DNA from: Fimbriimonadaceae bacterium
GTDB taxonomy: Bacteria > Armatimonadota > Fimbriimonadia > Fimbriimonadales > Fimbriimonadaceae
Direction of reading: 5' to 3'
DNA length: 8,292 bases
NCBI GenBank assembly: GCA_019694835.1
Contig: JAIBBE010000156.1
Span: forward strand, 1-8,292
Shown here piece after piece: positions 122-8,292 of this stretch. Made by a program: the position numbers and the translations under genes. Numbering within the stretch: the first letter of the stretch is position 1; each line of letters opens with the position of its first letter. The notes beneath the pieces were generated by a model, which worked only from the letters and a program-made list of their open reading frames with translations, was not told where the DNA came from and ran no database searches.

Positions 122-733
122 ATGGCATCCCGCCCGCCCTTCAACCTTGACTATCCACCTGGTGCCACACCCCTGGATGCCGATGAACTTGCCAGCCTCA
201 TTCCCAGCCACATCACCACGCAGGGTGATTTAAACGAATGGGAGCAGCTCAACATCCTTCAGGGCGAGCAATGGGTACGCAAGCAGCGCAAGGAGTTCCT
301 GACAGAGGCCTTCCTGCGCCAATTGCACAAACAGATGTTCGGCGAGACCTGGAAGTGGGCTGGCGAATTTCGCAAGTCCGACAAAAACATTGGCATCGAC
401 TGGCTAAAGATCAGCGTCGAGCTCAGGAAGCTGCTCGACGACATACGCTATCAACTCGAACACGGCAGCTTCCCGGCGGATGAAATCGCCGTGCGATTCC
501 ATCATCGACTGGTTGCCATCCATCCGTTCCCGAATGGAAACGGCCGCCATGCGCGTTTGATGGCCGATCTTCTGGTTGAGCGTTTAGGGAAGCCTCGATT
601 TTCCTGGGGCCAACGCAGCCTGAATGCGGGAAATCTGGTTGATGCCAATGAAACTCGACAGCGCTACATCGCCGCCCTGCAAGCAGCTGACGCAAGGGAT
701 ATCGCACCACTCCTCAACTTTGCGCGCAGTTGA
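122..733 (+). CDS. Mobile mystery protein B, Fic-domain protein
   Basis: This 203-aa protein is a Fic-fold enzyme. Such proteins typically transfer AMP or another phosphate-containing group from a nucleotide to a hydroxyl on a target protein. The Fic motif is clear at residues 134-145 (HPFPNGNGRHAR), with catalytic His134, the GNGR anion-binding turn at 139-142 and Arg145. It is preceded by the usual WKWAGEFR segment (77-84) and a KSDKNIGI flap-like strand (85-92). The N-terminal stretch PPGATPLDADE and the block LNEWEQLNI (37-45) are typical of mobile mystery protein B, and the length fits that family. Asn138 replaces the Asp/Glu of the common HxFx(D/E)GNGR motif, so metal binding may differ; I recall this as common in the family. 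I see no exact (S/T)xxxE(G/N) inhibitory motif. The ATG follows the upstream stop by four bases, with GGCGGGA about 11 bases ahead as a weak ribosome-binding site. Confidence 0.93.
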   Translation: MASRPPFNLDYPPGATPLDADELASLIPSHITTQGDLNEWEQLNILQGEQWVRKQRKEFLTEAFLRQLHKQMFGETWKWAGEFRKSDKNIGIDWLKISVELRKLLDDIRYQLEHGSFPADEIAVRFHHRLVAIHPFPNGNGRHARLMADLLVERLGKPRFSWGQRSLNAGNLVDANETRQRYIAALQAADARDIAPLLNFARS

Positions 734-989: not shown

Positions 990-3900
990 ATGCCACTCGA
1001 CGATCTCCTCTCCCGTATTCGAGCCGAGAATCTCAACGTCTATCGAGCCAGTCCACAACGGTTGCGCGAAGACGTCGGCCAAGAGTCTCAGATCTCTCAG
1101 GACTACCGTGGGCGCCTCATCTACGAGCTTCTTCAAAACGCCGACGACGCTATTTCGTCGGAAACCCCTTCTTCCCTAGCTGCCATCGCATTTGTTCTTG
1201 AGGAAGACGCTCTGTGGGTCGCTAACTCAGGACGACCGCTCGACGAAGCCGATGTAAGAGGGCTCTGTGGGATCAGTGCTAGCAGCAAGTCCACGACGAG
1301 TGGGAAGCGCCGGGCTTCAATTGGCCACAAAGGGATGGGATTCAAATCCGTTCTGGAAATCTCCGATGCGCCGGAAGTGTACTCGACGACGATCAGCTTC
1401 AGCTTCGGACCCGACAAGGCTCTGAAAGCCATCGACGCTCTTGTTGCGGACGCTACCTTGCTCCCGGTGGCCCGCGCGCCCGTCACACGATTTCCGTGGC
1501 ACATAGAAGAAAAACCTGATCAGTGGCGCGCACTGTGCGATCAAGGCATGAAGACGGCCTTCCGGTTCCCGCTGCGCTCCAAGATGACATTCGAACAGCG
1601 CGAAGGTCTCGCACGTTCTCTGCGCGATCTTCCGGTGACATCTTTGGTGTTCCTGAAGCATCTCTGTCGTGTCGAGGTCATCATCAGGTGCCAGGAGAAC
1701 AATCATTCGTTTGCGTGGACAGCAAGGCGCCAGAGAGTCACCGACTCTAGAGAACACGACGTTCTGGCGTTCTCAGATGCGGGTACGTATCGCGTCGTAC
1801 TGACTCCTGACCAGGGAGTCGCAGAGACATTTCTCGTCGCGCATGACCCTAGCATTCACATCGAGAAGAATCGCGGTGGCCTGGATGAGTTCACTTGGGA
1901 CGGCATAGAGCTAACTGAAGTTTCCGTTGCGGCACGCATCCGCAGCGACAAACCTGTAGCGCTTGATCCAGCGTGGCGAAAGCTCCACGTGTTCCTTCCC
2001 ACAGGGGAGCCTTGCCCCTACCACCTCCTGGTGAGCGGTGCGTTCGGCTCGAACCTATCCCGTCAAGAGATTCGCGTAGAAGCCGACGCAACGAACTACA
2101 ACCGCCACCTCATGCGACACGTCGCACGCATACTTCGTGAATTGCTGATTCCGCAGCTCATATCCAGCGGGTCGTCCGTCGTCGATGTCCTGAGGATCCT
2201 AGATCGAGGAACACCAGTTGGAATTCCATGCGCGACTGCGGCAGCGCAGTCGCTCTTCGACGAAGTGCGTACCGCGCTGTACGACTTCACATTTCTTCCC
2301 CAGGAAGTTGGGACGCCGCTCGCCATCGCGACATGCGTCGTACCGCCGATCACTAGCGACGCCCATGTCGGCGAGATGCTCAGAGATCTTCTTCCTGCAA
2401 AAGCTTCCTCAGCGGACCGATGCTTCCCAATTTCTGCGCTTTGCGGTTCCGACGTCGCCCGAGTCCTCGTTGACCACGGTGCCCATGAATTAACTCCAGA
2501 GGCCGCGGCGGCAGCTCTTTCCAATCCTGACCCAACCCGGTCTCAACTTGACCTCGCGGGCAACCTGTTTGTGGATCCCGTGTTACGGGTCTTGGAGAAG
2601 CTTTGGCTGTCGCTGGGCGCTGATGGGCGCGAAAGACTTGCCAACGCAGCCCGACGCGAATCGCTCTTTCCTGTAGGCATAGCTAATGATGGAACAGCCC
2701 AGCGGGTCGCCACATCTGGGGTGATGTGCTTCTATCCGCCGCGGTCACTACATGGAACGGTCCCACTAGACGGTCTTTGCTTTTTGATGCAGGAGATTTG
2801 CTGGGGAGATTTGACACCTAAGGAACGCAATCAACAACTGCGGCAAGAGGTAGCTACCTGGCAAGCTCTCTTTGACGTGCAGGAGTTCAAGTTCCCGGCC
2901 GTTATGCGCGCCAGTGTCCTGCCGGCGCTTGATCTTGAGCGAGATGCTCATAGCCGCGAGGAACGCGAGTCACTACACACGTTTGAACGCATTGCAGCAA
3001 TTTGTCAGCTTGCCGGGCGAACGCCGAATCCCGGTGCGCCGTTACCTTATGAGCGCCTTGGGCCGAATCGCGCCCTTTTCAATTTAAGCCGCTTGGACGT
3101 TCCCTGTCGCAGTGATGTACCGGGGCAGTACGTCTGGGTCCCTGCGTACCGGGCGTACCTAGGAAGTGACTGGGTTGGAGAAAACTCTGTCGAGCGAATT
3201 CTCGCGGTCGGGCGTGAGCTTCGGGTTGAAGGGTTGCCATCGGTCAACTTTCTCGCCGGACCCGACGCCTTCGTTGGACTCCTAGCGAATTATCGTCACC
3301 TTCAAGAGGCGCCACGAACAGAAGATATCGATCCTGGCACAGACGAGGTGGGGATAGACGAGGATGAAGAAGCCGCTTTGGAGGGGGACGAAAGAAGCCG
3401 GTGGCTCAATTTTTTTTTGTGGCTTGGGGTAAATCAGGCACTTCGGCCAGTCCATTTCCACGATGTCGAAGATCGCGCGTCCGGTTGGTTGAAGACGGCA
3501 AATCTACAACGTCCGGAAGGCTGGATCTTCAGGAACCTAGATCAGAGTGTCTGGAGAGAATACGTCGATCGCGTCCGAGGCTCGCTCGCAGAAGTTGGAC
3601 CAGATGAAGAAACGACGCCCTACTTCTACGGCTTGCATGATCTCGATCACCTCGTGACCCTCCTGAGAGCTGCCTCCGAGGACCAAACGACCAAACTCGG
3701 TCGCGCCCTCTACGAGCATCTCGCACGAAATTGGCATTCGTTAGAGCGATTCTCAGCTGCTCTAGTCGCTCAAGTGCCATCAAACAGCGTTCCGGCAATG
3801 AGAACCAAGCCGCAACGAGCGAAGGATGATGAACTCATCGAGGTGGGTCCAGATTTCTGGGTGGCGCGTCTTCAGGCATCGCCATTTTGTCCAACCGGCC

Positions 3901-5882
3901 ATGGTCCGCGATACGCCAAGCAAGTCTGGCTACCGTCTCTTGAGGTCGAACGTCGCTTCGGGCGCCGAGCCAGGACTGGGAGCTTCCTGATCCCGGCTCT
4001 TGAGGTGGATCCGGCGGTTCTCAGAGGGAAAGCGAGGGGATTTGCACAGGCACTTGGCATACGCGAAGAGCTGAGTTCTGCCGCCTTCACCCTGAACGAT
4101 GCTCGCATCATGCTTGAGCGTCTGCGTGATCTTTACACCAACAGGTTTGAGGTAGGCGAAGATCTACGGCTCGAACTCCGAGAGGTCATCCGACCAGCCT
4201 ACCGCAACCTTTTCGAACTTCTCTCCGGCAAGGAACAGATTAATCCGCTGCTGGCACCTGGTGCACCACCGCTCGCAAATGCGCCACTCTTGGCCCACGA
4301 TGGTCGTAAAGCCTATCGCTTTATCGATGATGGGCAACTCTATTACATGGACCGTCGAGAAACGCGGGAGCATCTGAAATCGGACGCGGCCATTTGGTCA
4401 TTCGTACTGGAAGCGTTGCCTGTGGCAAGAACGTCGATCGTCCAGCTTTTCGGCGTACCTGTCCTGGAAGAGTCGCTCCGATGGGCCCCTAGACCGGGGG
4501 ACAGTGCGTTGAGTGTTGAAGAACTCGATCATCTACGAGAGGAGATTCGCCTTCTCGCCCCCTATCTGCTCGCACGAATCGCCACTGACCGATCAGACGA
4601 GAAACTTGCTAGACAAGATGCACAACGTCTGCGTAGGTTCGTAGAGTGCCTTGAGGCCGTGACAAATCTGGAACTCGATTGTGAGTTGGCGGGGAAGAGG
4701 CTCGATCTCGGCAATGGTGGTCGAGATTCCTTCGTCGAATTTGTTTTGGACAAGACTACCCATGCCTTCGTTGTCTGGGGAGAACAGTCGTGGCCTCCCG
4801 AACCACGCGAGGCAGAAGCGCTCGCCAACGCGCTTTGCGAAGTCTTTAGTGCCGGATATTTCGAGCCGTTTCTGGCCCTGATACAGGCAAAGACACCAGA
4901 AGACCGCGAGCGTCTTCTCCGTCGCGCCGGCGCACCTCTTGACGTTGATGAGAGACGGGCCCTGTTTCTGAACAACGAAAAGGGAAACCCGCAAGAGGTC
5001 GAAGTTGGTGCGCCCGCTGATCCGAAGACCACCGTGCCTTCAGGGACACAGGAGCAACAGGCCGTGCTACCCAATGGCGCCAGCCAGCAACTACCCTCGA
5101 CCAATGTACGCCGCGTACCCTTGTTCTCGCCTAGTCAGCTGCTACTCGACGGTCAGCCCATTCTGGTCGTAGGCACCGGTACTTCGCAACCCACATCAAA
5201 CGGAAAACCGACTGACGCTGCAAGCTTCGGGAGAGGCCCGAGCGGTTCAGAGAACCACGGGTATGGTGGACACACTGACCTCGACGCACTAAACAGAGTA
5301 GGCATGTGGGTTACTCTGACGTTCGAGCGGAACCGACTGCGTCAGTCCGGCCTGCACAACGCGGACATTCTCGATCCTGAACGCAGCGAACCACAGCCAG
5401 ACGCGATGGTGTTCGATGTGTCATCACCAGACAAGATTGCCAGCGCCCGAAGAATGTCATCGATCTTCGATGCGTCGATGAAGCAACTCAGTTGCTTATT
5501 TGGCATTTCACAGGAGTGGCCTGGATTCGATGTCCTCACTCTTGATCCACGAGTACCAGATCAACTCGATCGCCTTATCGAACTAAAGTCCTCGGGGGTA
5601 AAGTCGCGGGTACAGGAAATGACCTGGAATGAGTGGAAGTCGGCCGGTTCAAGCGCACTCAGAGCCCGCTTCTATCTCTACCTAGTAGGAAATCTCCGCT
5701 CGGATCTAAAGGAAGCTCAGCCATTCGTTCGAACGATTCGAAACCCATTCGAACAACTCGCGGCTGAAGTTCGGGTTGGCCAAACGGTTAGCCGCAAGGT
5801 TCTGCTTTCTGTTGAACTTTTCAAGGAGGCCGAACATCTCGTACTTTCAGTTGATGACGGGTTGCCGAATCCATCGATGTAA
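990..5882 (+). CDS. Giant sacsin/NO VEIN-like GHKL ATPase with C-terminal DUF3883 PD-(D/E)XK-like domain
   Basis: The protein has 1630 residues. The N-terminal GHKL (HSP90/MutL-type) ATPase shows the N box YELLQNADDA (45-54; Glu46, Asn50, Asp53), a G1-like ANSGRPL (78-84) followed by DV (88-89) and a Ser/Lys patch, and the G2 box IGHKGMGFKS (111-120). This is the arrangement of prokaryotic sacsin-N-terminal-like ATPases; the canonical DxGxG Asp is replaced by Asn79. The middle is long and lacks recognised domains, with an acidic tract (about 780-802) before a WLNFFLWLGV block (805-814). A Gly/Pro/Gln-rich linker spans about 1331-1430. The C-terminus (about 1438-1570) matches DUF3883: Glu1446, Asp1514, Glu1531-Leu-Lys1533 (PD-(D/E)XK pattern), then WNEW (1546-1549) and YLYLVG (1562-1567). 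Plant NO VEIN has the same end-to-end order. ATG 990 is the first start after an in-frame stop at 942 and precedes the conserved N-terminal region directly. A DNA-targeting defence role is inferred, not shown. Confidence 0.88.
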   Translation: MPLDDLLSRIRAENLNVYRASPQRLREDVGQESQISQDYRGRLIYELLQNADDAISSETPSSLAAIAFVLEEDALWVANSGRPLDEADVRGLCGISASSKSTTSGKRRASIGHKGMGFKSVLEISDAPEVYSTTISFSFGPDKALKAIDALVADATLLPVARAPVTRFPWHIEEKPDQWRALCDQGMKTAFRFPLRSKMTFEQREGLARSLRDLPVTSLVFLKHLCRVEVIIRCQENNHSFAWTARRQRVTDSREHDVLAFSDAGTYRVVLTPDQGVAETFLVAHDPSIHIEKNRGGLDEFTWDGIELTEVSVAARIRSDKPVALDPAWRKLHVFLPTGEPCPYHLLVSGAFGSNLSRQEIRVEADATNYNRHLMRHVARILRELLIPQLISSGSSVVDVLRILDRGTPVGIPCATAAAQSLFDEVRTALYDFTFLPQEVGTPLAIATCVVPPITSDAHVGEMLRDLLPAKASSADRCFPISALCGSDVARVLVDHGAHELTPEAAAAALSNPDPTRSQLDLAGNLFVDPVLRVLEKLWLSLGADGRERLANAARRESLFPVGIANDGTAQRVATSGVMCFYPPRSLHGTVPLDGLCFLMQEICWGDLTPKERNQQLRQEVATWQALFDVQEFKFPAVMRASVLPALDLERDAHSREERESLHTFERIAAICQLAGRTPNPGAPLPYERLGPNRALFNLSRLDVPCRSDVPGQYVWVPAYRAYLGSDWVGENSVERILAVGRELRVEGLPSVNFLAGPDAFVGLLANYRHLQEAPRTEDIDPGTDEVGIDEDEEAALEGDERSRWLNFFLWLGVNQALRPVHFHDVEDRASGWLKTANLQRPEGWIFRNLDQSVWREYVDRVRGSLAEVGPDEETTPYFYGLHDLDHLVTLLRAASEDQTTKLGRALYEHLARNWHSLERFSAALVAQVPSNSVPAMRTKPQRAKDDELIEVGPDFWVARLQASPFCPTGHGPRYAKQVWLPSLEVERRFGRRARTGSFLIPALEVDPAVLRGKARGFAQALGIREELSSAAFTLNDARIMLERLRDLYTNRFEVGEDLRLELREVIRPAYRNLFELLSGKEQINPLLAPGAPPLANAPLLAHDGRKAYRFIDDGQLYYMDRRETREHLKSDAAIWSFVLEALPVARTSIVQLFGVPVLEESLRWAPRPGDSALSVEELDHLREEIRLLAPYLLARIATDRSDEKLARQDAQRLRRFVECLEAVTNLELDCELAGKRLDLGNGGRDSFVEFVLDKTTHAFVVWGEQSWPPEPREAEALANALCEVFSAGYFEPFLALIQAKTPEDRERLLRRAGAPLDVDERRALFLNNEKGNPQEVEVGAPADPKTTVPSGTQEQQAVLPNGASQQLPSTNVRRVPLFSPSQLLLDGQPILVVGTGTSQPTSNGKPTDAASFGRGPSGSENHGYGGHTDLDALNRVGMWVTLTFERNRLRQSGLHNADILDPERSEPQPDAMVFDVSSPDKIASARRMSSIFDASMKQLSCLFGISQEWPGFDVLTLDPRVPDQLDRLIELKSSGVKSRVQEMTWNEWKSAGSSALRARFYLYLVGNLRSDLKEAQPFVRTIRNPFEQLAAEVRVGQTVSRKVLLSVELFKEAEHLVLSVDDGLPNPSM
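3410..3418 (+). repeat. T9 homopolymer inside the giant ATPase gene
   Basis: Nine consecutive T bases encode part of N-F-F-L at residues 807-810. The frame continues into WLGV, a motif I associate with sacsin-like proteins, so the frame as read is the functional one. Loss of one T would bring a TAA at 3430-3432 into frame within a few codons. Gain of one T would shift into a frame that ends at 3607, giving a protein of roughly 870 residues without the DUF3883 domain. Confidence 0.9.
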
Positions 5883-6008: not shown

Positions 6009-6025
6009 AGCGCTGCCTCAGCGCT
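6009..6025. terminator. Perfect GC-rich hairpin touching the IS left end
   Basis: AGCGCTG, a CCT loop and CAGCGCT form a perfect 7-bp stem. Its last base is the first base of the insertion sequence's inverted repeat. No T tract follows, because the element begins there. It may be the stem of a terminator for the giant ATPase gene whose T tract was displaced by the insertion, or a structured target site. Either reading is inference. Confidence 0.3.
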
Positions 6026-6035
6026 GTGACCTGCC
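6025..6035 (+). repeat. IS left inverted repeat (IRL)
   Basis: TGTGACCTGCC is the exact reverse complement of 7221-7231. Weaker matching, including a shared GATTT block, continues inward to about 6051. Base 6024 has no counterpart at 7232, which fixes the outer boundary. Confidence 0.85.
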
Positions 6036-6067
6036 CGGAGATTTTCGGACCAGTAAAACTTGAGAAG

Positions 6068-6094
6068 ATGGCTTCCTTGAAGAGAGGAAGTCAT
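6068..6094 (+). promoter_or_regulatory. Hairpin sequestering the orfA ribosome-binding site and start codon
   Basis: In RNA, positions 6068-6078 (ATGGCTTCCTT) can pair with 6084-6094 (GAGGAAGTCAT), giving an 11-bp stem with two G-U pairs and a 5-base loop. The 3' arm contains the GAGG Shine-Dalgarno (6084-6087) and the first two bases of the orfA ATG. Any transcript that includes the 5' arm would hide the translation start. Other insertion sequences, such as IS10 and IS50, use this principle to avoid being switched on by read-through transcription, here from the upstream gene. The pairing is seen in the sequence; the function is inferred. Confidence 0.6.
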
Positions 6095-6356
6095 GAGAAA
6101 GAGTCGATTCACCGAAGCCCAGATCGTCACCATCCTGCGGGAAGCGGATCGGGGATCAGTTGCAGAAGTAGCCAAGAAACACGGCATCAGCGAACAAAGC
6201 ATCTACACATGGCGGAAGAATTTCGGGGCGCTCGATGCGGCAGACGTAAAGAAGCTGCGTCAGCTCGAACAGGAAAACGCGCGGTTGAAGAAGCTCCTGG
6301 CGGAGCGCGACCTTGAAGTTGAGATCATGAAGGAGATCAACGCAAAAAAATGGTGA
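6093..6356 (+). CDS. IS3-family transposase OrfA (IS407 group)
   Basis: This 87-aa protein begins MRKSRFTEAQIV, the signature of IS407-type OrfA. Residues about 5-45 form the helix-turn-helix that binds the element's terminal repeats (EVAKKHGISEQSIYTWRKNF covers the recognition part). Residues about 53-80 form a heptad-rich leucine-zipper-like coiled coil (LRQLEQENARLKKLLAERD) used for oligomerisation. The length is standard and the frame is uninterrupted. GAGG lies five bases before the ATG but within a hairpin that includes the start. The gene ends in INAKKW, where an A7 run allows a -1 shift into orfB. With orfB broken, this protein may still be made and, by analogy with IS3 and IS911 where OrfA regulates transposition, may act as a DNA-binding modulator. 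Confidence 0.93.
   Translation: MRKSRFTEAQIVTILREADRGSVAEVAKKHGISEQSIYTWRKNFGALDAADVKKLRQLEQENARLKKLLAERDLEVEIMKEINAKKW
6330..6350 (+). promoter_or_regulatory. Programmed -1 frameshift site (A7 with upstream SD-like sequence)
   Basis: The run of seven A at 6344-6350 is read in the orfA frame as gcA AAA AAA, matching an A-AAA-AAA slippery heptamer. A Shine-Dalgarno-like AAGGAG (6330-6335) lies eight bases upstream, a spacing like that of the dnaX-type stimulator. A -1 shift enters the orfB frame, where an ATG also begins at 6350, so initiation at 6350 is an alternative. In this copy either route reaches an amber codon at 6392 after 14 codons. Confidence 0.7.
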
Positions 6357-7203
6357 GCGCACCCGCAAGGCGCCGCCAGGTCGAATACGCCTAGGTGCGT
6401 GGCCTGTCAGAGCGCAACGCTTGTGCGCTGATGCGAACCGCAAGGTCGCCGCTCCACTACGAATCCCGGATGCAGCAGAAGGACGCCACGGCGCTGGTGG
6501 CCATGAGCATTCTCTCGGCGCAGTACCCGAGGTACGGCTACCGGCGGATACAAGTTTTTCTTGAACGCCAAGGGCAACAGATGAGTACCGACCGGGTCTG
6601 GCGCCTCTGGCGTAAGGCGGGGTTGCAGGTTCCGAGGCAGCGACCGAGAAAGAGAATTGCGCTATCGCGCCCCCGGCCGCAATCGCCGATTGCAACCGGG
6701 CAGGTATGGGCGTACGACTTCGTATTCGACGCCTGCGCCAACGGACAGCAACTGAAATGCCTGACCGTCGTTGATGAATACACGCGGGAGAGCCTGGCCA
6801 TCGATGTGGCCGGCTCGATCCGTTCAGGGAGAGTGATTGAAGTGCTGTCGCAACTGATCAGTACGCATGGCGCACCGAAGATCCTGCGTTCGGACAACGG
6901 GCCGGAATTTGTATTTCGTGCCCTTCTGCGCTGGGCGGCCAACGAAAATCTCGATATGGCGCTGATCGATCCCGGCAAACCGTGGCAGAACGGTACAGCC
7001 GAGAGTTTCAACGGCAAGTTCCGGGATAAACGTCTGTGATGGAGTGGTTCCGCAACCGGATCGAGGCCAAGGTCGTGATCGAACAATGGCGACAGCATTA
7101 CAATGAAGTCCGGCCGCATTCGAGTTTGGGAAACCAGACGCCGGCGGCATTCAAGAAACAGTGTTTTTCAACCACCCAACCGGAAGCCATTTTCCAGGAA
7201 TGA
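6350..7203 (+). pseudogene. IS3-family transposase OrfB (DDE integrase domain), broken
   Basis: OrfB supplies the catalytic DDE domain of the transposase. The three acidic codons are present: Asp at 6716 (WAYDFVF), Asp at 6893 (RSDNGPEF) and Glu at 7001 (TAESFNGKF), with the usual 35 residues between the second and third. The N-terminal part carries the LSERNACALM and YGYRRI blocks typical of IS407 OrfB. Two lesions are visible. A TAG at 6392-6394 lies just before VRGLSERN and could come from CAG by one change. One base is missing near 7037-7039: after FRDKRL the frame hits TGA, whereas the expected MEWFRNRIEAK...HYNEVRPHSSLGNQTP continues in the next frame from 7039 to a TGA at 7201-7203. 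FRDKRL also departs from the usual FRDECL. Unless suppressed, this gene makes no full transposase. Confidence 0.9.
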
Positions 7204-7220
7204 GTGACCCGCAGAAATCA

Positions 7221-7231
7221 GGCAGGTCACA
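7221..7231 (-). repeat. IS right inverted repeat (IRR)
   Basis: GGCAGGTCACA is the exact reverse complement of the left end at 6025-6035. It lies 17 bases after the last orfB-frame stop, the usual compact layout for an IS3-family element. Confidence 0.85.
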
Positions 7232-7272: not shown

Positions 7273-7824
7273 TTACGCACGAGAACACAACCCCACTACA
7301 ACCCCCTGCTGGAATGCAGTCAGCTTCATCTCTTCAGCTTTGCATACTGGATACAGTATCTTCGCCATGTGGCAATCAGGATGTCTATGCATGGCAAGCA
7401 GCGCGGGCACAAATCCTGACCGCTCCTTGGGCGTTGAAAGAACAACACACGATGCGCCGCTTCTCAATGCAGCGATCACCGACGACATTGCCTCTTCGGG
7501 TCTCCTAGGTACGGCAAAAAACCAATCCGTTCCGGGAACGTCAAACAAGGGAAGGATCTTGATGTTGTTCGCGCCTACGGTATCGGCCAGTTCTTGGAGT
7601 TCTGCCGAATTCAGGGACTGAACGAATTCACTCGCTGGAAGTACGACCAGGACAGGCTGACGCAGTTTTGCCAGATCGGTCAACACACCAGCGAGTGCAG
7701 ATGTCTTCTGAGCGGGTTCGCCAGCATCAAAAAGGCTGTTTCGAACAACACCAAAATAGACAGTACCCCAATCCTCTGGAAGTCCATACGGAATCCTGCA
7801 TTCTTCAAGTGTGATGTTTTCCAT
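7273..7824 (-). CDS. Unrecognised 183-aa alpha/beta protein, coupled to the helicase-nuclease
   Basis: I do not recognise this protein. It begins MENITLEECRIPYG and reads as alternating hydrophobic strands and helices: candidate strands are TVYFGVV, PVLVVLP, NIKILPLF, WFFAVP, CVVLST and KILYPV. That pattern suggests a soluble Rossmann-like alpha/beta fold. There is no signal peptide, membrane segment or clear P-loop. The ATG at 7824 was preferred over a start at 7932 because the longer frame would run about 100 bases into the end of the upstream gene, and the proline- and glycine-containing start at MENITL looks like a genuine N-terminus. Four bases separate it from the upstream stop and GAGG lies about 12 bases ahead, so translational coupling is likely. 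The stop at 7273 lies only 41 bases from the insertion sequence end; a rearranged C-terminus is possible but not shown. Confidence 0.72.
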   Translation of the reverse strand: MENITLEECRIPYGLPEDWGTVYFGVVRNSLFDAGEPAQKTSALAGVLTDLAKLRQPVLVVLPASEFVQSLNSAELQELADTVGANNIKILPLFDVPGTDWFFAVPRRPEEAMSSVIAALRSGASCVVLSTPKERSGFVPALLAMHRHPDCHMAKILYPVCKAEEMKLTAFQQGVVVGLCSRA

Positions 7825-7828
7825 TTTC

Positions 7829-8292
7829 TCAACTCGCCTCGTGTTCAGTCTGGAGCCCGCCTCCCGCCACCGGCAGGAACAGCCAACTCTCCTGCACCGG
7901 TTTTCCACTGCCTGTACGCACTGCGTCCCCATAAGCAGTCAACTGCGATCCGTGATCCATCACCAGCCGATCCCAAGCATCGGGTGCAAGCGGGCTGGAC
8001 TTGTGGTCGATGAGAATCCAACCTGAATCCGTTTCCAGCAGCAGATCAATACGCCCGTTCTGCACCTGCCCTGACTGCAGAACGCTCTGAACTGCGATCT
8101 CCGCATATGGCCTGGCACCTGGCCAGCGGGTCTTTATCCACTCATGAAGCGCCAGTATTTGCCGGAGTACAGCCGCAGGCGAAAGAAACTCCAGAACACC
8201 AAACCCAGAAAGTAGGCGTGAAATCTCCTGTTCAGTCACTTTCACGCTCCGGTCGGCAAACGACAGAGCGATGCACGCGTGGATTGCCGTTC
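7829..8292 (-). CDS. C-terminal RecB-type PD-(D/E)XK nuclease domain of a UvrD/AddA-like helicase-nuclease (partial)
   Basis: The frame is open to the window edge and ends at a TGA at 7829-7831; about 154 residues are visible. They carry the ordered motifs of the RecB/AddA nuclease family: IH (His codon 8279-8281), YAEIAV (Glu, 8099-8101), GRIDLL (Asp, 8045-8047), LIDHKSS (Asp 8006-8008, Lys 8000-8002) and the QLTAY motif (Gln 7943-7945, Tyr 7931-7933). In this family the Asp, Asp and Lys bind metal and cleave DNA, and His and Gln/Tyr complete the site. Such domains usually end UvrD-superfamily helicases or AddB-like proteins that process DNA ends; the helicase part would lie to the right. 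A GTG at 8243-8245 could be taken as a start, but the conserved IH motif upstream shows the gene begins further out. The next gene follows after four bases. Confidence 0.82.
   Translation of the reverse strand, partial: TAIHACIALSFADRSVKVTEQEISRLLSGFGVLEFLSPAAVLRQILALHEWIKTRWPGARPYAEIAVQSVLQSGQVQNGRIDLLLETDSGWILIDHKSSPLAPDAWDRLVMDHGSQLTAYGDAVRTGSGKPVQESWLFLPVAGGGLQTEHEAS

Follow-up and report, generated by a model that had tools for sequence, protein, structure and literature searches.

A Tiamat-like protein with a sacsin-type GHKL ATPase and a PD-(D/E)XK-like domain, a candidate single-gene defence protein of a Fimbriimonadaceae bacterium

Introduction

VcSduA, the closest published design to the protein described here, is a Shedu protein carrying a GHKL ATPase and a PD-(D/E)XK nuclease, and its anti-phage activity is lost if either activity is altered (PMC12137116). 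In the same paper, VcSduA is modelled as a dimer in which the ATPase may control the nuclease, and the authors take its protection at all phage doses tested to reflect direct restriction that leaves the host viable. GHKL families with C-terminal restriction endonuclease-fold nucleases were reported earlier, paraMORC3 being the earlier annotation of the VcSduA type (PMC2292703), and DNA ends are sensed by Shedu (PMC12904381). In this study, we analysed an 8,292-nucleotide stretch of DNA from a Fimbriimonadaceae bacterium (contig JAIBBE010000156.1; hereafter the window), in which the gene at positions 990–5882 encodes a protein with a sacsin-type GHKL ATPase at one end and a NOV_C/DUF3883 nuclease-like domain at the other. 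The plant protein NO VEIN has the same order, GHKL and then NOV_C, and the Pfam family NOV_C is named after it.

A 2026 review places Tiamat among the systems whose mechanism is unknown (PMC12926258); a 2023 survey likewise gives its mechanism as unknown and finds it almost always chromosomal in Actinobacteria (PMC10482375), and Tiamat also occurs in island hotspots of Pseudomonas (PMC12629846). In the literature searched, mostly without subscription papers, neither a mechanism for Tiamat nor a text naming TmtA and Tiamat together was found. DUF3883 has been described as a novel restriction endonuclease domain, in an operon with restriction–modification components and a DUF499-type ATPase (PMC3710099); in that case its fusion partner is an SNF2 helicase, whereas in the window it is a GHKL ATPase.

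Results

The first-pass annotation of the window had placed an ATPase signature at one end and DUF3883 at the other end of an uninterrupted gene. The open reading frame (ORF) listing of the window gave one intact ORF of 1630 amino acids (aa) without a break, and all the motifs named were found at the residues assigned to them. The features are as follows, with residue counts taken from the alignment of 106 proteins described below, and with pLDDT denoting the predicted local distance difference test score.

990–5882, forward strand: complete gene for the 1630-aa protein, with a sacsin-type GHKL ATPase, a middle region and a NOV_C/DUF3883 PD-(D/E)XK-like domain (Tiamat/TmtA-like)
1044–1724, forward strand: GHKL ATP-binding domain, residues ~19–245
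1122–1151, forward strand: N box YELLQNADDA, residues 45–54 (Glu46 and Asn50 in 105/106, with one gap)
1320–1349, forward strand: G2 box IGHKGMGFKS, residues 111–120 (each residue in 104–106 of 106)
1725–2174, forward strand: transducer (S5-like) domain, residues ~246–395, from fold matches
2175–4991, forward strand: middle region, residues ~396–1334, with no Pfam match above cut-off
4992–5264, forward strand: poorly predicted linker, residues ~1335–1425, of low pLDDT
5265–5849, forward strand: PD-(D/E)XK-like nuclease domain, residues ~1426–1620, from the predicted model and fold matches
5325–5327, forward strand: Glu1446, a near-invariant acidic residue located in the nuclease domain's first long helix, from alignment and model
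5529–5531, forward strand: Asp1514 (106/106)
5580–5588, forward strand: Glu1531-Leu-Lys1533 (Glu and Lys in 106/106)
5625–5636, forward strand: WNEW, residues 1546–1549 (Trp1546 in 106/106; Asn1547, Glu1548 and Trp1549 in at least 97%)

The profile search that had been proposed for both ends gave a match at each. Pfam SACS matched residues 38–232 above its cut-off (2.3e-11), and the NCBIfam sacsin N-terminal ATP-binding domain matched at 4.4e-22. NOV_C/DUF3883 matched residues 1511–1571 (E = 0.0012), though at 19.4 bits it fell below the 22.1-bit cut-off; an 81% identical relative, P0004, likewise scored under the cut-off (19.0 bits). A Pfam match to DUF5803 (0.0099, below cut-off) was taken as chance, and the sequence search against solved structures gave a single match of chance level (E = 0.61). 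Rfam and tRNA scans of the window found none.

In the predicted N-terminal model, a Bergerat fold followed by an S5-like transducer (Hsp90/MutL/MORC/Topo VI-B type) occupies model residues ~19–395, supporting the GHKL type named in the annotation. Among the structure matches shown for this model, which cover residues ~19–436, those to Hsp90, topoisomerase VI, SMCHD1 and MORC3 extend through residue ~391–395. The nearest ATPase folds are those of sacsin and Hsp90, and the closest solved structure is sacsin SR1 (27% identity over 175 aa). The middle region was modelled with pLDDT mostly of 80–98 per block and a dip at ~773–797; in the C-terminal model, values below 50 fell in the linker (model positions 184–212, 214–217 and 251–276). 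In the nuclease domain, the D...(D/E)xK pattern of the PD-(D/E)XK superfamily lies on adjacent strands of a predicted alpha-beta core, and the SPARDA nuclease is among the top structural matches, while Foldseek with the C-terminal model gave no match at E ≤ 0.001. As judged from this model, the C-terminus is probably PD-(D/E)XK-like and a putative DNA-cutting domain, rather than the unrelated fold that would have spoken against the annotation.

From its 7991 best candidates, a whole-protein word search recovered 407 proteins with E ≤ 0.001, and the best 120 of these 407 share 44–84% identity with the window protein, its own entry excepted. From these 120, 106 proteins of at least 1580 aa each, including the window's own, were aligned, and the conservation of the motifs at both ends is far above chance. 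Under stricter motif criteria applied to the full 120, the motifs were present at both ends in 103, at the N-terminus in 110 and at the C-terminus in 113; 14 of the 17 misses were shorter than 1580 aa, and the other three were 1587, 1619 and 1795 aa long. NOV_C was precomputed in 24 of the 120, and six relatives chosen from those 24 and scanned were all above the NOV_C cut-off. The copy of Chitinilyticum piscinae (locus L001; 81% identity) gave a ratio of nonsynonymous to synonymous substitution (dN/dS) of 0.136, and internal stops were absent from the eight family genes read from loci, including that of the window. The gene is under purifying selection.

Between the window gene and its counterpart at L001:9989–14872, the silent-site difference was 0.24–0.31 per 100-codon bin at codons ~1300–1600 and 0.32–0.63 before them. 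No such low stretch as a whole appeared in four further pairs, L004/L005 included; in the two pairs with L007 the 1501 bin alone was lowish. It is possible, from these sequence comparisons, that the nuclease end underwent recent recombination.

The kinship of the protein was examined with the PADLOC profiles of TmtA, a name that we take to stand for Tiamat. Nine TmtA profiles match the window protein, the best at 1.3e-62, which rules out an unrecognised single-gene system, and six of them match all 15 family members scanned at 1e-20, the window's included. When the protein was scanned by pieces, the match was strong for residues 1–450 (5.3e-54), weak for 801–1200 (0.0056) and absent for 451–800; residues 1511–1587 matched (1.7e-6) only within the piece 1201–1630, and the piece 1401–1630 alone gave none. 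Like Tiamat, the window protein is a single large protein with an N-terminal sacsin-type GHKL ATPase, and NOV_C is C-terminal in the full-length TmtA of Rhizobium, L039 (1816 bits, residues 25–1858 of 1859); in contrast to L039, its match is strong just over the first ~450 residues, with 5–386 as the best stretch, and does not run over the whole length of the profile. L039 appears to have the same two end domains: it matches NOV_C above and SACS slightly under the cut-off. It aligned with the profile of the window family over residues 35–380 only, and its C-terminal end alone, as a single sequence, gave no alignment with that of the window family, both ends matching Pfam NOV_C, the window's below cut-off. 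Three proteins of haloarchaeal plasmids (L014–L016) are end-to-end relatives at about 25% identity, with NOV_C in two of the three; L014 shares 26% identity, and its nuclease end aligns at E = 7.5e-23. The architecture thus spans bacteria and archaea, and the partial match to TmtA and L039, together with the end-to-end kinship of L014, indicates a Tiamat-like subfamily and not Tiamat proper.

Other labels fit less well. Like VcSduA (Shedu type I-D), the window protein unites an N-terminal GHKL ATPase and a C-terminal PD-(D/E)XK domain in one gene, as read from its predicted models, but DUF4263, the signature nuclease domain of VcSduA, was not listed at E ≤ 1 in its Pfam scan, which rules out Shedu as the family label; VcSduA is also much shorter, as its catalytic Lys is residue 557. 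The likeness to sacsin lies in the ATPase, for which SR1 is the closest structure, whereas a single SACS stretch is present and no HEPN, DnaJ or ubiquitin-like domain was found by Pfam at E ≤ 1; sacsin, with its repeated ATPase modules and HEPN/DnaJ domains, was also rejected as the family label. The likeness to MORC is one of fold only (MORC3 and MORC4, predicted model).

Homologues forming mainly conserved core genes had been named as evidence against a defence role; instead, the gene is rare and patchy. In genome scans at E ≤ 0.001, the gene was present in 1 genome among 41 relatives of the Chitinilyticum genome. At E ≤ 1e-30, it was found in 1 of 398 genomes of the Chitinilyticum phylum and in 3 of 296 genomes of the L007 phylum, one of the three being a 98-residue match with a stop. 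At E ≤ 1e-60, 1 of 296 genomes of the L004 family and 4 of 282 of the L005 phylum were positive. Each count includes the known-positive centre genome; the last also includes the L006 genome, and one of its four positives spans residues 5–407 only. Identities among family members depart from taxonomy: the L004 protein (Bradyrhizobiaceae) is 74% identical to that of L005 (a deltaproteobacterium), 70% to that of L002 (Pirellulaceae) and 56% to that of L001 (Chitinilyticum). Between the window and L001, DNA similarity is confined to 996–5860, and the gene appears to travel alone, as a single-gene unit. Among plasmids, 41 records matched, seven over at least 80% of the length and all below 60% identity, and megablast of the window against plasmids found none. 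Viral contigs gave three pattern matches and no relative of the window protein, and annotated phages just two weak partial matches.

The protein database places the window protein on a single contig of 8292 bp; the window is thus seemingly the whole contig, and both outer genes are cut. Around the gene lie the following features, which match the annotated setting of mobile mystery genes, an insertion sequence and a helicase-nuclease.

1–117: last 38 codons of the ORF just upstream of mobile mystery protein B, cut by the contig end; probably mobile mystery protein A, by position
122–733, forward strand: mobile mystery protein B, Fic type (TIGR02613, 4.2e-83)
6025–7231, forward strand: IS3-type element with transposase genes and 11-bp matching inverted ends (TGTGACCTGCC)
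7273–7824, reverse strand: 183-aa ORF immediately following the AddA-like gene in the same orientation, with no Pfam match at E ≤ 1
7829–8290, reverse strand: last 153 aa of a PD-(D/E)XK protein of AddA/RecB-like type, truncated at the contig end (PF12705, 1.1e-7)

The IS3-type element looks decayed, because its orfB shifts to another frame near the end (by eye).

Neighbouring genes were examined in 12 loci (L001–L009 and L047–L049). L010–L012 and L042–L046 duplicate these loci or form parts of them, and L013, a 98-residue match, was left out; contig ends truncate the gene in L003 and L009, and in L048 it is partial. In L001, a GmrSD N-domain fragment lies ~0.7 kb upstream, with a RecQ-UvrD protein further off. 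In L009, a metagenome contig, the gene immediately upstream is that for HmaC, a protein of the Hma system (1105–4577), split over two reading frames (4.5e-155 and 5.8e-80). At 1e-10, a set of 46 neighbour ORFs from L002, L003, L006, L007, L008 and L011 (part of L049) matched nine PADLOC families, with a single member for eight of them and two members for the ninth; the strongest match was to PDC-S27 (2.1e-187). These matches were not assigned to individual ORFs, and none was counted as clear defence. For L047, L048 and the remainder of L049, the neighbours were assessed by eye alone.

Discussion

We favour, with moderate confidence, an autonomous single-gene genome-defence protein of Tiamat-like kind, in which an ATP-operated clamp would gate a nuclease. 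The observed part of this explanation consists of the intact gene, the predicted folds, the co-conserved active sites, purifying selection, the patchy single-gene spread and the kinship to TmtA. ATP binding in the GHKL-transducer modules would hold two protomers together as a clamp, and the large middle region may sense or thread a phage process or the nucleic acid of an invader. Closure of the clamp, driven by ATP, would then bring two C-terminal PD-(D/E)XK domains onto DNA, which would be cut by Asp1514, Glu1531 and Lys1533. We infer dimerisation, ATP gating, DNA as the substrate and phage as the target.

Several observations limit the support for the annotation, which had proposed a count of homologues within defence islands. 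Clear defence- or restriction-type genes adjoin the gene in 4 of the 12 loci (L001, L004, L005 and L009; counted without a control set of genes), but several loci lie, by eye, among housekeeping-looking genes. The proposed clustering of Asp1514, Glu1531 and Lys1533 follows from the predicted strands and fold matches, not from coordinates, and the model block holding Glu1531 and Lys1533 has a mean pLDDT of 78.

An abortive-infection effector, whose clamp senses infection and whose nuclease then cuts DNA or RNA indiscriminately so that the infected cell dies, is a less likely alternative. The SPARDA nuclease, found among the top fold matches, acts non-specifically, but resemblance of the nuclease fold does not settle the substrate. 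Also in favour of this alternative, no methylase or other conserved protective partner was identified beside the gene in the loci examined, where profiles were run on part of the neighbours. Against this alternative, VcSduA is read as direct restriction with a viable host (PMC12137116).

Dependence on a partner, as a three-gene unit in which an AddAB-like helicase-nuclease processes DNA ends, is unlikely. The pair in question is as follows.

L004:4066–9959 and L031–L038: non-standard AddB-like (PD-(D/E)XK) and AddA-like (UvrD and PD-(D/E)XK) genes

In L004 and L005, the two genes form tight operons with the family gene. In L004, they are upstream on the same strand and the AddA-like stop overlaps the start of the family gene by 4 bp, and in L005 the overlap is 11 bp; the window's 7829–8290 product, in addition, shares 36% identity over 142 aa with the end of the AddA-like protein of L004. 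However, tblastn with four AddA-like and four AddB-like queries did not find the pair in the other seven named loci, L047–L049 or the three haloarchaeal plasmid loci, the only further matches being the AddA-like end of the window and a short stretch of helicase in L001. The pairs of L004 and L005 are themselves only distant relatives (26% over 537 aa). The AddA-like scores are far under curated cut-offs (L004, 150 bits against 861 for alphaproteobacterial AddA; L005, 113 against 696 for RecB). At E ≤ 1e-40, 27 plasmid records held AddA-like matches; in all eight stretches inspected of these, the two genes of the pair overlap, and no relative of the window protein was detected by tblastn within flanks of ~9 kb (two chance-level matches, E of 0.14 and 0.38). 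Against viral contigs, the AddA-like protein gave 14 distant helicase loci. Since the pair occurs in these plasmid stretches without the family gene, it is best regarded as a separate module that sometimes joins it, and was rejected as a fixed partner; as several of the eight plasmid pairs lie near CBASS, ThiF/multiubiquitin, restriction or toxin-antitoxin genes, the pair may itself be a defence module. It is improbable, though conceivable, that the family is a switchable partner of this DNA-end processor, which would present ends on which the GHKL clamp loads and licenses a third PD-(D/E)XK nuclease, with complete operons in L004 and L005 and a rearranged one in the window, IS3 lying between.

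A housekeeping role, as a sacsin/Hsp90-like chaperone or a DNA-repair clamp with no defence link, is very unlikely: it would suit the nearest ATPase folds and the loci with housekeeping-looking neighbours, but not the rare and patchy gene, the nuclease-like domain with fully conserved active-site residues or the kinship to TmtA.

For the autonomous, ATP-gated defence protein, the proposal of a candidate single-gene system thus stands in its ATPase and nuclease folds and patchy spread, but not in its novelty, as TmtA profiles recognise the protein and the VcSduA design has been published. The finding is real, the mechanism is a sound guess and the kind is already known. The new point, as read from sequences, is that a subfamily of Tiamat-like proteins pairs an apparently intact ATPase clamp with an apparently intact nuclease-type site in 106 full-length members. 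A large Tiamat-like family with a co-conserved ATP clamp and nuclease site would offer a direct, testable mechanism for Tiamat and would group Tiamat-like proteins with the GHKL-type Shedu among ATP-gated nucleases. A link to bacterial defence for the architectures of NO VEIN in plants and sacsin in animals would likewise be compatible with such a family, though not proven by it.
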